In this document: positions 8,431 to 59,556 of the stretch, in pieces
Position numbering within the stretch: position 1 is the stretch's first letter
Layout: every line of letters starts with the position of its first letter
Source: Lachnospiraceae bacterium oral taxon 500
GTDB taxonomy: Bacteria; Bacillota; Clostridia; Lachnospirales; Vallitaleaceae
DNA length: 64,000 nucleotides
Assembly: GCA_002999035.1 (NCBI GenBank)
Contig: CP027241.1
Location: forward strand, 1,243,001 to 1,307,000
Direction: 5' to 3'
Notes under the pieces: model-generated
Seen by the model: the letters and a program-made list of their open reading frames with translations, nothing else
The model's database searches: none
What the model was told of the DNA's origin: nothing
Program-made: the position numbers and the translations under genes

Positions 8431-8662
8431 TTGGCACACGGATAGTATCCCGGGGTCAAAGGCAGTTGCGGCATGATAAAAAAGAGGATAAATTCTTTGG
8501 CAGGGAAGCCCGGCAACGGAGTTTTATACTTTTGATCTTTCCATCATAAAATTAAATAAAAGACGGCGGAGAAGCGGCGGACCTTTAAACATAGGGGACA
8601 GCCGCTTTCCGCAACCTATCGGCCTAACTTTCAGGTGAGTCCATCCAGATTGCCGCCCGGCA

Positions 8663-8679
8663 GAAGTGCGCAGCGCTTC
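8663..8679. repeat. Short hairpin cassette, solo copy before clpP
   Basis: GAAGTGC-GCA-GCGCTTC is a 7-bp hairpin with a 3-base loop, followed by ACCGGGGAAAGCGAAG, which resembles the right end of the dispersed element described at 35751. It lies in the 296-base space between tig and clpP (8431-8726), which otherwise holds no gene I can support. Confidence 0.55.
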
Positions 8680-8726
8680 GACCGGGGAAAGCGAAGCTGT
8701 TAACAAAAGAAAAGGAGTGAAGCAAT

Positions 8727-13125: not shown

Positions 13126-13182
13126 GCAAAAAAGGCTTTGCCTTTTTCGCTAGGCATTCTGCTAAGCGGGTTGTGCCCGCGT
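13126..13182. repeat. Hairpin cassettes between lon and the methyltransferase gene
   Basis: Two hairpins about 42 bp apart: AAAAAGGC-TTT-GCCTTTTT (near 13129-13147) and GCGGG-TTGT-GCCCGC (near 13167-13181). The surrounding sequence also contains AATAGTCTTTTTTT, similar to the dispersed element ends elsewhere. They fit the roughly 41-bp cassette family in weaker form. Confidence 0.4.
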
Positions 13183-13207
13183 AGAAACGCAAAGCCCTTC
13201 GACAGAG

Positions 13208-13795: not shown

Positions 13796-13871
13796 AAATT
13801 TCCTTTCTGTTTCATTTCTAACGAAGTGTATTCGGCCAAAAAACAAAGTCTTTTGCCAATTTCCAAATATC

Positions 13872-13960
13872 GAAACGTTGCGCTTTCTGTACGGTGCGAA
13901 CCTGTCAAGCAAAAAGACACAGCCTTTTAGCAAACAGAAGTGGTGAAACGCTGCGCTTTC
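13872..13960. repeat. Hairpin cassettes upstream of the methyltransferase gene
   Basis: Two copies, GAAACGTTGCGCTTTC (13872-13887) and GAAACGCTGCGCTTTC (13945-13960), each a short hairpin with GAAA/TTTC closing pairs, in the 297-base space 13796-14092. No gene is seen there. The distance of 73 bp is not a simple multiple of the 41-bp period seen elsewhere. Confidence 0.5.
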
Positions 13961-22275: not shown

Positions 22276-22305
22276 TGTCCTGACGAACATGGGAAAGTTG
22301 AGTAA
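22276..22305 (+). repeat. Solo right end of dispersed AACTCAACTTTCCC element
   Basis: TGACGAACATGGGAAAGTTG plus AGTAA (22281-22305) is the reverse complement of the left end seen at 54631-54656. It lies 5 bases upstream of the -35 box of the carboxypeptidase promoter. Confidence 0.7.
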
Positions 22306-29506: not shown

Positions 29507-29550
29507 GGATAGGCTTACCACCCCTATATTGGTACGGAAAGGGGGTGTGT

Positions 29551-29646
29551 TTGTTGAGTATATTTTTGTCGTTTATCGTTTCTATTATGGCAGGTATAGT
29601 TTGCCACTGTATCTGTAAATGGCTGGATAGAGATGAAAACAGGTAG
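29551..29646 (+). CDS. 31-residue single-helix membrane peptide, type I toxin-like
   Basis: A short frame starting at TTG 29551 (or TTG 29554) follows AAAGGGGG at a good distance. The product begins MLSIFLSFIVSIMAGIVCHC, continues ICKWLD and ends with charged RDENR, giving one membrane helix and a charged tail, the build of type I toxins and holin-like peptides. It has its own promoter and a perfect 14-bp terminator right behind, so it is a self-contained transcription unit of about 210 bases. From memory, similar peptides with a conserved KWLD are common beside hairpins in gut clostridia, but I could not search. No antisense promoter was proven. Confidence 0.6.
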   Translation: MLSIFLSFIVSIMAGIVCHCICKWLDRDENR

Positions 29647-29683
29647 TCAGCCTAAGGCCTAAGCCACCTTACCAAAACAAAAT

Positions 29684-29718
29684 AGAAAGGCCACGAGTTG
29701 CGACCTCGTGGCCTTTCT
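29684..29718 (+). terminator. Intrinsic terminator behind the small peptide gene
   Basis: AGAAAGGCCACGAG (29684-29697) pairs perfectly with CTCGTGGCCTTTCT (29705-29718). It is symmetrical enough to act in both directions. Confidence 0.8.
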
Positions 29719-29805
29719 TGTGTTCATTGAGCATTCTTGTCGTTTTGCCTGTATTTATTATAGCACACCAAAACCAGTTTGTAAACTATTATAAAAAAAC
29801 TAGAT

Positions 29806-35506: not shown

Positions 35507-35871
35507 CGCCGGGCAGTCGGGAACTGCAATCTGTGGCGGGGAAAGCCCAAGGGGAAAAAGAAAGGCTTTTTGCGGCGGTGCGCGGATAATTTTGTTCCGG
35601 TGATTTGTTTTGGCGCCGGTTTTCAGCCGATGACCGGCACCGGTAAGCAGACAGATTTCGGCAAATATTTTTAAGGTTAAAGCAGGCAAAAAAGGAGAGG
35701 GCGGGACTTTCCTCAAATAGGGGAAATCCGGCCGGGAACAGTTAAATATATTACTCAACTTTCCCGTGTTGACAGAACAGTCTTTTTTAGGCAGATCGCC
35801 CACCCGGGCGGAAGTGCGCAGCACTTCGATCAGGGGAGAGTTGGGTATATTGCACCAGAAAGAAGGAAGAA
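35507..35871. other. Repeat-containing intergenic region lepA to pepC
   Basis: The 365 bases hold one complete dispersed element (35751-35848) directly before pepC; the first 240 bases show no gene and no clear terminator. Confidence 0.6.
35751..35848 (+). repeat. Dispersed element copy with terminal inverted repeats (before pepC)
   Basis: Left end TTACTCAACTTTCCCGTG (35751-35768), then AGAACAGTCTTTTTTAGGC, a perfect 7-bp hairpin GAAGTGC-GCA-GCACTTC (35811-35827), and right end CAGGGGAGAGTTGGGTAT (35831-35848), which is the imperfect complement of the left end. About 98 bp in all, ending 24 bases before the pepC start. Confidence 0.72.
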
Positions 35872-44924: not shown

Positions 44925-44950
44925 TAAGCATTTGCCGTTCAGGCAGGACA

Positions 44951-45170
44951 CTCATAATTTGCTGAAAGCGAATTATGAGTGCGGGTATCCTGTCCCGCCC
45001 GAAGCATCGCGTTTCAGTTCGGGTGAGCAGCTTTTCCGGCCGAAATATTGCGTGTTTCTGCCCAAACGGCATCCTACCCCGGTTGAAGTGCTGTGTGTTT
45101 TAGTTCGGCGGCAACTTTTCCGCTCGAAGCGCCGTGCGCTTCAATCAGGCGGGCAGCTTGCCCCAATGGG
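44951..45170. repeat. Tandem array of about 41-bp hairpin cassettes
   Basis: It opens with a 13-bp-arm hairpin (CTCATAATTTGCT/AGCGAATTATGAG, 44951-44980). Four cassettes follow with hairpins starting at 45001, 45042, 45085 and 45126, i.e. steps of 41, 43 and 41. Examples: GAAGCGC-CGT-GCGCTTC (45126-45142, perfect) and GAAGTGCTGTGTGTTTT (45085-45101), where all seven pairs form if G-U is allowed. Linkers share CGGGCAGCTTnnCC/GGCAACTTTTCC. Confidence 0.7.
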
Positions 45171-45587: not shown

Positions 45588-48137
45588 ATGAAACGAAAAT
45601 TAACAGCACTATTATTGACAATGTGTCTGCTGCTTACTGCTTTTCCAATACCGGCGGCAGCAGCGGAAAGGATTACGATTCGCATTCAAGGCGATGAGCA
45701 TGTTAAGGGCTTCCAAGTCGGCAGTGAGCTGAAACAGGAGCTTGTGCTTGAGGCAGATAAGGGAAAAAATTTAGAGGAGATTATCAATGATAATCCCGGA
45801 GAACCGGTTTTTAACACGGGCTATGAGGCGGAAAACTTCTATACCTCAGGTGGTGAAGTAATTGCTTATGAGCGGATGGCTGCCTATATTCCGGCCGACG
45901 GGGAAACCTTTCTCGTTAAGGGAAAATGGAAAGAAATGACAAATATCCAGATGATAGCGGCGGGCAGCAGCAGAGTGTACAAAGGCGGACAAGGGCTTAT
46001 TTCAATTGCTGTTTACGATAAAGAAGATAAGCCGAATACCATACCGGCCAGTGAATATACATGGTCTTTGGAGGGGGCAGTGCAGCCCGGTACCAAAATT
46101 GAACCGGATGGGGCTTATGGTTTACTGACGGTTGATTCGGCGGAAACGGCAGCGTCACTTACGATTAAAGCGGTTTTTCGGCATCAGGCAGGTGTTGAGG
46201 GGGAATATACGGTAAGTGTTATCGATATGCCGACGTATTCCGGCTTGGAGATTGAAAGCCGGATCCCCGGAGACTGGGAACCGGGTAAAGTCTATGGTTT
46301 GATAATAAAAGGCAAAAAAACGCTAACAGAGACAGATAATCTTTCGCCGGCGTATTTTAATTTTGCCCTGACCGGCAATACTTCGCCGAATACCAAAATT
46401 GATCCCAGAGAGGGGTATGTCACAGTAGCGGCGGACGAACTGTCCACTTCGCTGACGGTTACAGTTGCTCATAAGACAAATACGGCTTTGCAACAAAGTA
46501 AGACCTTTACTGTTACTGTGCCGGATTATAATTTGGCAATTAAACCGGAAAATCCGAAAGTGAAAAGAGGCGAGAGTGCTCAGTTTTCGGCGTATGCATC
46601 TTATACAGATGGCAGCAGGGAAGTAGAAGTCAAAGCGCCGTATCTTGTTTGGCGGATGGCGACTTCGACAGATTCTTCAACTATTACGCCGGAAGGGCTG
46701 TTTACTTATGCTCAGAATCAGGAGGGTAATCAAGTAAACGTAGTAGCAGAATTTAAAGGGAAAGCAGCTTATGTTACAGTGAAAGAGCAGATTCTTGAGA
46801 GCATAGAGATTACGGAGATTCATTCGCTTTCATCGGTAACTCCGGGAGGAGAGATGCAGTTTAAAGCCAAAGGCAAAGATAATTTTGACGAAGACATCGT
46901 TTTCGCACCAGGCGAGATTAAGTTTGAACTGGTAGCGGGCGGTACAGTGGCACCGGCTCTGGAGAAAACCTCGACCAATACCCGTCTTGATGAGAGGACC
47001 GGCAAATTAATTGTCGGCAGGGATGAATTTAAAGATAAGCTGACGGTGAAAGTAAGCCATGCGGCTACCGGAAAGTCTGTTCAAATGCCTATTAATGTTA
47101 ATCGCGGTCCTTATACTCTGAAGTTGAAGCCCCAAAATGCAACGGTGGCCAAAGGAGAAAGCAAACAGTTTACAGCGTATGTGGTTGAGGGTTCTACGGA
47201 AGTGGCTTTAAAGCCAACTGACCTGACATGGAAAGCATTCGTAGATTCAGCAGAAGCCACCCAGTCGGCAATTACCGTAAACGGTGTCTTTACCTATGGA
47301 GCAGCAGAAACGGCTACAGAAGTAGCGATTAAGGCGACTTTAAAATATGATTCGACTAAAATGGCTAATGCAGTGGTCAAGCTAGGGGCGAGCAGCAATC
47401 CCCCGCTTAACGGCTATGACAATGGCAATAGCAGTAACAATGGCAATAACAATAGTAATAACAATAACAATAGCAGTAACAATAGCAGCAGCAACACCGG
47501 CGGACCGGCTGCACCTGCACCGCAGCAGCCGAAGAAGGCGGAAGATAATAAACCGAAACCGCAAGACAAGAAGACGGATAAGACCAATGAAATTATCGGG
47601 CGTTTTCAGGATATCGCCGGACACTGGGCGCAAAAAGCAATTGTAAAAGCCATAGAAAAAGGTATCTTTAAGGGTGTAGCCGAAAACAGCTTTGCGCCGG
47701 ATCGGCAAATGAGCCGGGCAGAGTTTATCACCGTACTGGGCCGGATGAGTGAGCAGGCGGCAGTCTTGCGGGAAATTCCGTTTAGCGATGTGAACACAAA
47801 TGCTTACTATGCACAGCATGTGGCATGGGGGGCGGCGCTTGGTCTGATGAAAGGTTTTGAGGACGGCACTTTCCGGCCGGAGGCTAAGATTACCAGAGAG
47901 CAGGCAGCAGTCATTTTTGCTAATTTCTTAAAGGATAAAAAATTGCCGGAAAGCCCGGTAACTGCCTTTGGCGATGAGGAAAATATCAGCGGCTGGGCGA
48001 AAGAAGCCGTCAAGAAAGCGGCCGCGCTGGGGCTGTTAAAGGGCAAGGACGGCGGCCGGTTTGCGCCGAAAGATGTGCTCACCCGCGCAGAAATGGCGCA
48101 GATTTTAGATAATCTGAGTAATATGCTGGAGAAATAA
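45588..48137 (+). CDS. Surface protein with Ig-like domains and three C-terminal SLH domains
   Basis: This 849-residue exported protein is built for the cell surface. A signal peptide (LLLTMCLLLTAFPIPAAAA, about 7-25) is followed by repeated Ig-like/BIG2-type domains of about 90-100 residues (about 125-640; SGLEIESRIPGDWEPGK, LAIKPENPKVKRGESAQFSA and TLKLKPQNATVAKGESKQFT mark repeats). A low-complexity linker rich in Asn/Ser/Gly (about 607-636) and Pro/Lys (to about 665) leads to three SLH domains (about 670-845; FQDIAGHWAQKAIVKAIEKG, FSDVNTNAYYAQHVAWGAAL and FGDEENISGWAKEAVKKAA), which bind pyruvylated wall polymer. ATG follows AAAAAGGAGATAACA. Role could be S-layer or adhesin; ligand unknown. 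Confidence 0.9.
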   Translation: MKRKLTALLLTMCLLLTAFPIPAAAAERITIRIQGDEHVKGFQVGSELKQELVLEADKGKNLEEIINDNPGEPVFNTGYEAENFYTSGGEVIAYERMAAYIPADGETFLVKGKWKEMTNIQMIAAGSSRVYKGGQGLISIAVYDKEDKPNTIPASEYTWSLEGAVQPGTKIEPDGAYGLLTVDSAETAASLTIKAVFRHQAGVEGEYTVSVIDMPTYSGLEIESRIPGDWEPGKVYGLIIKGKKTLTETDNLSPAYFNFALTGNTSPNTKIDPREGYVTVAADELSTSLTVTVAHKTNTALQQSKTFTVTVPDYNLAIKPENPKVKRGESAQFSAYASYTDGSREVEVKAPYLVWRMATSTDSSTITPEGLFTYAQNQEGNQVNVVAEFKGKAAYVTVKEQILESIEITEIHSLSSVTPGGEMQFKAKGKDNFDEDIVFAPGEIKFELVAGGTVAPALEKTSTNTRLDERTGKLIVGRDEFKDKLTVKVSHAATGKSVQMPINVNRGPYTLKLKPQNATVAKGESKQFTAYVVEGSTEVALKPTDLTWKAFVDSAEATQSAITVNGVFTYGAAETATEVAIKATLKYDSTKMANAVVKLGASSNPPLNGYDNGNSSNNGNNNSNNNNNSSNNSSSNTGGPAAPAPQQPKKAEDNKPKPQDKKTDKTNEIIGRFQDIAGHWAQKAIVKAIEKGIFKGVAENSFAPDRQMSRAEFITVLGRMSEQAAVLREIPFSDVNTNAYYAQHVAWGAALGLMKGFEDGTFRPEAKITREQAAVIFANFLKDKKLPESPVTAFGDEENISGWAKEAVKKAAALGLLKGKDGGRFAPKDVLTRAEMAQILDNLSNMLEK
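47410..47490 (+). repeat. Asn/Ser codon tract in the SLH gene
   Basis: Repeated AATAAC/AATAGC-type triplets encode a run such as NNGNNNSNNNNNSSNNSSS. It is a flexible linker and likely to change length by slippage. Confidence 0.7.
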
Positions 48138-48325: not shown

Positions 48326-48476
48326 AAATTCAACTTTCAACCGGGCGGATCCCCGTCCCGACAGAAATGAGCAGTATTCGAGCGGGCAGGTCATGTGCCC
48401 GGATAAAAGTGCATAGCGCTTTCGTCAGGGCAGGATGCGTGCGTGGCGTTTCGGCCAAGGGAAAGTTGAGTAACAA
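48326..48476 (+). repeat. Dispersed element copy with hairpin cassettes (before trxA)
   Basis: Left end AAATTCAACTTTCAACC (about 48326-48342), two cassettes with hairpins at 48364 and 48405 (a 41-bp step; the second is AAAGTGC-ATA-GCGCTTT), and right end AAGGGAAAGTTGAGTAAC (48457-48474). It ends 62 bases before the trxA start. Confidence 0.68.
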
Positions 48477-48924: not shown

Positions 48925-48969
48925 GCTGAAATAAAAAAGGGGCAATCTTATCCCGGTCAAAACGCTATC

Positions 48970-49054
48970 CGTTTCTGCCGGGGTGTGGTCTGCTCGGAGT
49001 GAAATGCTTTGCATTTCTGTCCGGCGGGCGGCCTTGATTGAAAGTTACGCTTTC
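48970..49054. repeat. Hairpin cassettes before the glycosyltransferase gene
   Basis: GAAATGC-TTT-GCATTTC (49001-49017, perfect 7 bp) and GAAAGTTACGCTTTC (49040-49054) are 39 bp apart with the linker TGTCCGGCGGGCGGCCTTGA; both hairpins are followed by TGTnCGGC. A remnant third unit (TTTCTGCCGG) precedes. Confidence 0.65.
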
Positions 49055-54511: not shown

Positions 54512-55308
<797 letters not shown>

Positions 55309-59411: not shown

Positions 59412-59556
59412 TAATAACTCGACTTTCCCTTGACGAAAGGTTTTGCTTTTCTGTTTGAGAGAATAACAGTTAAGGGATAATGTATGTTCTTGCATAAAAG
59501 CGTAGTTATTTTGAGAGAGAAAATTTTTAACAAACAGGGGAAAGTTGAGTTATTGT
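59412..59556 (+). repeat. Dispersed element copy with clear terminal inverted repeats
   Basis: Left end AATAACTCGACTTTCCCTT (59413-59431) and right end AGGGGAAAGTTGAGTTATT (59536-59554) are complements at 17 of 19 bases. The inside (about 105 bases) is AT-rich and unlike the hairpin cassettes of other copies. It ends 70 bases before the lipoprotein gene. Confidence 0.75.

Follow-up and report, generated by a model that had tools for sequence, protein, structure and literature searches.

Covarying two-hairpin cassettes within a probable modular MITE of Lachnospiraceae bacterium oral taxon 500

The BOX elements (boxA-boxB(n)-boxC) of the streptococci S. pneumoniae and S. suis are short composite MITEs that have terminal inverted repeats in common with an insertion sequence, are accompanied by a target duplication, and contain internal modules in tandem, variable in number and each folding independently (PMC3049150). 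The repeats analyzed here resemble BOX in all these respects, with end modules around variable tandem internal modules, but there is no visible sequence relation, the ends are of the IS4 type, the host is a genus of Clostridia, and the two-hairpin module has stems that covary and is mixed with several unrelated hairpin modules. The double-hairpin elements of Allomyces mitochondria and the repetitive hairpin elements of sponges (PMC2800124 and the work of Paquin cited there) also measure tens of bases, consist of two adjacent hairpins, are intergenic, and generate no target duplication themselves; the present cassettes differ in being bacterial, confined to a putative transposon, and arranged in tandem arrays inside it. 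REP/BIME sequences spread by RAYT (PMC2817692) are likewise dispersed intergenic palindromes with compensating changes, whereas the present family has no RAYT in its genus and no fixed tetranucleotide head and is nested in what is probably a DDE-type MITE. Finally, decayed insertion sequences of the IS4 family (NCBIfam NF049925; Pfam PF04693) in sister genera have an identical 12-bp end, although the element described here is devoid of a gene. We found no earlier description of this cassette family in the open-licence literature.

The window is a stretch of 64 kb from contig CP027241.1 of this strain. The first-pass annotation had reported four hairpins at 44951-45170 with changing stems but kept pairing. 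These hairpins are present and were found again, on the minus strand, by R1, a sequence-only cassette profile that draws on both the window copies and copies from other places. They form an array (45007-45160) of four decayed copies of a ~43-bp two-hairpin cassette, each of which is singly weak (E of 0.003 to 0.44 in the 64-kb window). R1 scores are better at 35791-35834, 8646-8686, 49001-49034, 13175-13204, and 48386-48421. The exact stem sequences that had been quoted exist, and copy 2 is the one that pairs only if G-U is allowed (Table 1). A perfect 7-bp stem occurs in the array at 45126 only, and the predicted fold of the focal 150 nt is no more stable than that of shuffled sequences (z of -0.37 as RNA and -0.61 as DNA); kept pairing is thus poor at the focal locus. 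Genome-wide, covariation is strong. Intact elements fold far above chance (z of -4.5 for 35755-35846 and -7.2 for 54633-54811). As to the recurrence that had been reported elsewhere in the window, cassettes do lie near 8663, 35811, 48364/48405, and 49001/49040, but the site at 13872 (13869-13894) is a weak R1 match (E of 0.25), and the hairpin at 54683 (54684 in our analysis) represents another of the modules of this element and not the two-hairpin cassette. The minimal element in the window ends 26 bp ahead of an ORF start.

Table 1. Cassettes, elements, and inverted-repeat ends located in the 64-kb window
Feature	Position	Strand	Evidence and remarks
Focal cassette copy 1	45121..45160	-	R1 profile; perfect 7-bp stem GAAGCGC/GCGCTTC
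Focal cassette copy 2, partial match, pairing needs G-U	45078..45100	-	R1 profile
Focal cassette copy 3, decayed	45037..45069	-	R1 profile
Focal cassette copy 4, decayed	45007..45031	-	R1 profile
Best window cassette	35791..35834	+	R1 profile, E 2.4e-14; hairpin A CGCCCACCCGGGCG, hairpin B GAAGTGC GCA GCACTTC
Complete minimal element	35754..35845	+	CTCAACTTTCCC...GGGAGAGTTGGG as inverted repeats around a single cassette; 7-bp target duplication is imperfect
Cassette within decayed element, upstream of clpP	8646..8686	+	R1 profile
Diverged element upstream of thioredoxin gene, cassettes 48352-48384 and 48386-48421	48329..48470	+	R1 profile
Decayed tandem cassettes, 48952-48985 and 49001-49034	48952..49034	-	R1 profile
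Partial cassette remnant	13175..13204	+	R1 profile
Element with same inverted repeats, interior without good cassette	59418..59549	+	Inverted-repeat ends
Solitary inverted-repeat end, preceded by long-end sequence GTCCTGACGAACATGG	22291..22303	-	
178-bp element in rpsL-rpsG spacer, three other hairpin modules	54633..54810	+	Target duplication TTAATAA/TCAATGA

Other features of the window were also recorded. A near-perfect 15-bp inverted repeat (CACTCATAATTTGCT/AGCGAATTATGAGTG, 44949-44981), which is not a cassette, adjoins the focal array directly 3' of a D-2-hydroxyacid dehydrogenase-like gene. About 10 copies of an imperfect hexanucleotide repeat, CAATAA, lie at 47426-47484 within an 849-aa ORF that weakly matches a leucine-rich-repeat surface protein model. 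The Rfam family SpF66_sRNA matched positions 29514-29727 over the full model (44.9 bits, gathering threshold of 42, E of 2e-7), in an organism that is far from Streptococcus.

The cassette consensus is GCAGACTGCCCGCCCGGGCAGAAGTGCGAAGCACTTCGATCAGG. Each cassette contains two adjacent hairpins, A (TGCCCG-CC-CGGGCA) and B (GAARYGC-RNA-GCRYTTC), of which the former, like the flanking inverted repeats and target duplications, goes beyond what the first-pass annotation had described. Both hairpins exist in several paired variants, namely, GCCCG/CGGGC, GCGCG/CGCGC, GTGCG/CGCAC, and GCTCG/CGAGC for A and GTGC/GCAC, ACGC/GCGT, AAAC/GTTT, AGGC/GCCT, ATGC/GCAT, and GCAC/GTGC for B, which also occurs in a form that is one base pair shorter. 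On the cassette strand, 126 of 128 triloops were R-N-A (GAA, GCA, GGA, GTA, ATA, AAA, and ACA, as in stable GNA loops) and the other 2 were R-N-G; the triloop strand varies among the module types of a single element. The cassette head is YAG, mostly GCAG with a minority of GTAG (second base C in 84 and T in 27 cases). A candidate outer stem that would join both hairpins (columns 4-6 with 44-46) includes one covarying pair (A-U in 54 and G-C in 34 cases), and its helix is paired in only 74% of the cells. Profile searches retrieved at least 151 copies in the own genome (G000) and fewer, 37 and 8, in two congeners; 19 further genomes of the family yielded none. When ~85,000 species were scanned for the exact pattern, matches came only from Clostridiales bacterium COT-073 and the metagenome-assembled genome S15M_Sa_66, which are these same two congeners. 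The cassette samples used for the counts given here are a part of the genomic copies, not all of them.

The cassettes lie between inverted repeats (CTCAACTTTCCC...GGGAAAGTTGAG), which delimit a probable MITE of 90 to 360 bp. Exact inverted-repeat ends number 94 in G000 and 0 in the reversed control. At least one end was located within 250 bp of 143 of the 148 cassettes (97%), compared with 17% of random positions, and both ends within that distance of 93, compared with 1.4% of random positions. Paired elements, of which 89 were drawn from several genomes, are 63 to 363 bp long and carry no transposase gene. Thirty-five of the 89 are flanked by a perfect 7-bp target duplication and 55 by one with at most one mismatch, against 4.7 expected from shuffled flanks; other flank lengths between 4 and 10 bp gave perfect duplications in 0 to 4 elements. 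The element between rpsL and rpsG has an orthologous empty site, TTAATGA, in the congener G001, where the unoccupied target reads TTTAATGATTATTAAGGAGG. The carrier thus shows the characteristics of a MITE, namely, (i) inverted repeats, (ii) a target duplication, and (iii) the lack of a gene combined with ends common with an insertion sequence. In G000, the interval bounded by ends at 2814593 and 2820739 was considered as a candidate long autonomous element but discarded, since it contains only ordinary genes. For five of the 148 cassettes, no inverted repeat could be recognised in the vicinity. Two of these, both in L061 (1436-1505 and 2076-2119), are perfect TGTGCG-subtype cassettes in gene spacers and are therefore candidates for independent insertion, so that some cassettes may move alone.

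Elsewhere in the family, the CTCAACTTTCCC inverted repeat also flanks transposase genes of the IS4 type that have decayed, in G006 and, at the end of a contig, in G018. L081 and L102 are such decayed insertion sequences, and the ORF of L081 has the IS4 Y-(2)-R-(3)-E-(6)-K motif (YGNRWSIEVFFKATK). The IS4-type ORF matched NF049925 with an E of 1.5e-55, a score below the cut-off because the ORF is a fragment. From the identical ends, we infer that the mobiliser is an IS4-family transposase, apparently lost from the own genome. A search of the three genomes of the genus (G000-G002) with the C-terminal fragment as the sole query gave no match and thus no intact transposase gene, and no intact autonomous element with CTCAACTTTCCC ends was recovered. 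The sister genera G004, G014, G017, and G020 contain a cassette-free, AT-rich MITE of 152 bp with identical inverted repeats (L082-L091), which is also flanked by 7-bp duplications.

The interior of the element is modular. In its minimal layout, as at 35754-35845, a long end of ~40 bp is followed by one cassette and a short end of 12 bp; other elements contain 2 to 4 tandem cassettes, up to 4 of them at 43-bp steps in L062, and some have further hairpin modules. The elements of the congener G001 (COT-073; L175-L191) possess extra modules such as GCCATCTTAC-GAA-GTAAGTGGC and CTTTTC-GCA-GAAAAG, which also have G-N-A triloops and are arranged in tandem. L015 and L021 agree at 150 of 151 positions, and what sets them apart is one clean 44-bp cassette with ACTAT on one side and GGGAAAG on the other; L028 and L013 differ by a 43-bp cassette at another site, between CCAT and GCACCC. 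The cassettes themselves are not flanked by a target duplication. These one-cassette differences correspond to insertions, precise losses, or exchanges between elements. Since the number of cassettes varies, at several positions, in otherwise identical MITEs, the element can be described as a BOX-like modular MITE.

To analyze covariation, we used 134 distinct cassette rows collected without use of structure, in which 91% of the stem cells are paired. Both hairpins covary: two-sided changes were present in 126 cells, as opposed to 44.5 (standard deviation of 11.6) in shuffles, none of 500 of which reached 126, and in 4 to 24 cells of slid structures, although the rows are related and the shuffle tests therefore overstate the significance. 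The proposal of a dispersed family with compensating stem changes is hence well supported, with covariation far above chance. Where one base pair was lost, 18 cassettes lacked the base on both arms and 1 on a single arm; this explains why repeat steps of 41 bp occur beside those of 43 bp. Among 102 copies unchanged at seven unpaired positions, 72 had perfect B stems, versus 3 of the 26 changed copies. Stem pairing thus decays with divergence; it is lost after insertion, and the covariation must arise in propagating copies. Pairing is a property of the copies that propagate and is not maintained later. Either perfect hairpins are required for propagation, or copying perfects them by template switching.

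The first-pass annotation had attributed the compensating changes to selection on RNA or single-stranded DNA structure, as in REP/BIME families or structured leaders. Hairpins selected as mRNA leaders, stabilisers, or small RNAs would fit with the covarying stems, with the location of 84 of 128 classified cassettes between co-directional genes (orientation taken from a simple ORF caller), and with the presence of one element in the str operon, upstream of rpsG. However, selection for RNA folding would be expected to leave more G-U than A-C among the one-sided changes on the transcribed strand, and such strand-specific maintenance of pairing was found neither on the cassette strand (58 G.T versus 62 A.C) nor on the transcribed strand, as oriented by co-directional neighbor genes (34 G-U versus 26 A-C; P = 0.37). 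A first, smaller transcription-oriented sample had yielded 17:6 in favor of G-U (P = 0.035); as this ratio fell to 34:26 upon enlargement, we dropped the reading of an asymmetry. The decay of pairing with divergence also speaks against an RNA function, as do the empty site that G001 has in place of the str operon copy and an Rfam scan of the window that returned no family matching the cassettes, so that we regard such a function as very unlikely. The stem covariation looks like a by-product or a requirement of DNA copying and not like a kept RNA function. The assignment to REP/BIME units spread by a RAYT (TnpA-Y1) transposase is extremely improbable: size, intergenic sites, tandem arrays, and palindromic form agree with it, but the head is YAG and not a fixed GTAG or GTGG, the cassettes are nested in IS4-type inverted-repeat elements with 7-bp duplications, and a PF01797 search of the genus revealed no RAYT gene and only decayed IS200-type Y1 fragments, two with 81-codon open frames, with no cassette nearby. 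A CRISPR-like array (repeat ACATCATTCTAAATTAACAAAGCTCTCAAAC) was observed beside a decayed IS200-type gene of the own genome (L197, ~1650-2000).

Template switching alone, in which a polymerase uses one arm as the template for the other while the DNA is replicated or transposed and so restores perfect symmetry without selection, would make the covariation a purely mutational effect; this is conceivable, though we hold it to be somewhat doubtful. The mechanism is documented (PMC8794818 and PMC7202029), having been described for RNA hairpins (PMC8794818), and the stem changes are perfect and symmetric, including the 18 double base losses beside a single one-sided loss. Inter-strand switching inverts loops, which is rare even among documented cases (PMC8794818); inverted loops were seen in none of the 128 cassettes, which argues mildly against it. 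Moreover, diverged copies are not re-symmetrised in place, so template switching would act mainly in propagating copies. Alternatively, the two-hairpin cassette could be a self-mobile micro-element similar to the mitochondrial double-hairpin elements, with the MITE being a frequent landing place. The clean one-cassette differences at different points of the MITE, without target duplication, and the two perfect copies without inverted repeats are in line with this idea, but we consider it unlikely, given that 97% of the copies adjoin a MITE end, that the only Y1 enzyme genes are the decayed IS200 fragments, and that precise loss or recombination between elements accounts for the same element pairs.

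Taken together, the carrier is very probably a modular MITE, the focal array a decayed part of it, and the covariation a consequence of propagation, with no sign of a kept RNA function. According to this modular MITE model, the CTCAACTTTCCC ends would be recognised by an IS4-family transposase, and between them would lie a variable number and mixture of hairpin cassettes of ~41 to 44 bp, chiefly the two-hairpin unit. The element inserts into AT-rich intergenic DNA with the observed duplication of 7 bp, and inside it, as the near-identical elements that differ by exactly one cassette show, whole cassettes are added, removed, and multiplied in tandem, each as a discrete unit. Propagating cassettes would keep or regain a perfect palindrome during copying, so that their stems covary. 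After insertion, the hairpins decay along with the rest of the element, which gives no sign of a kept RNA function, and the focal array would be one such decayed remnant. More tentatively, and with considerable reservation, the ~43-bp two-hairpin cassette may itself be a mobile or copyable unit, which would hop between MITE positions by a hairpin-dependent single-strand or template-switch process, without target duplication, its stems being re-symmetrised at each copying.

Covariation is usually taken as proof of a functional RNA; here, it is strong in two hairpins whose pairing shows no sign of being maintained in place. If the cassette is indeed a copyable unit, it would be a natural bacterial case of compensatory covariation that derives from a copying mechanism and not from RNA function. 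The element would represent a second example, apparently unrelated to pneumococcal BOX, of a MITE with interchangeable hairpin modules, and its large, genus-restricted cassette family may serve as a test case for telling selection on RNA apart from template switching or a structure-dependent copying of DNA.
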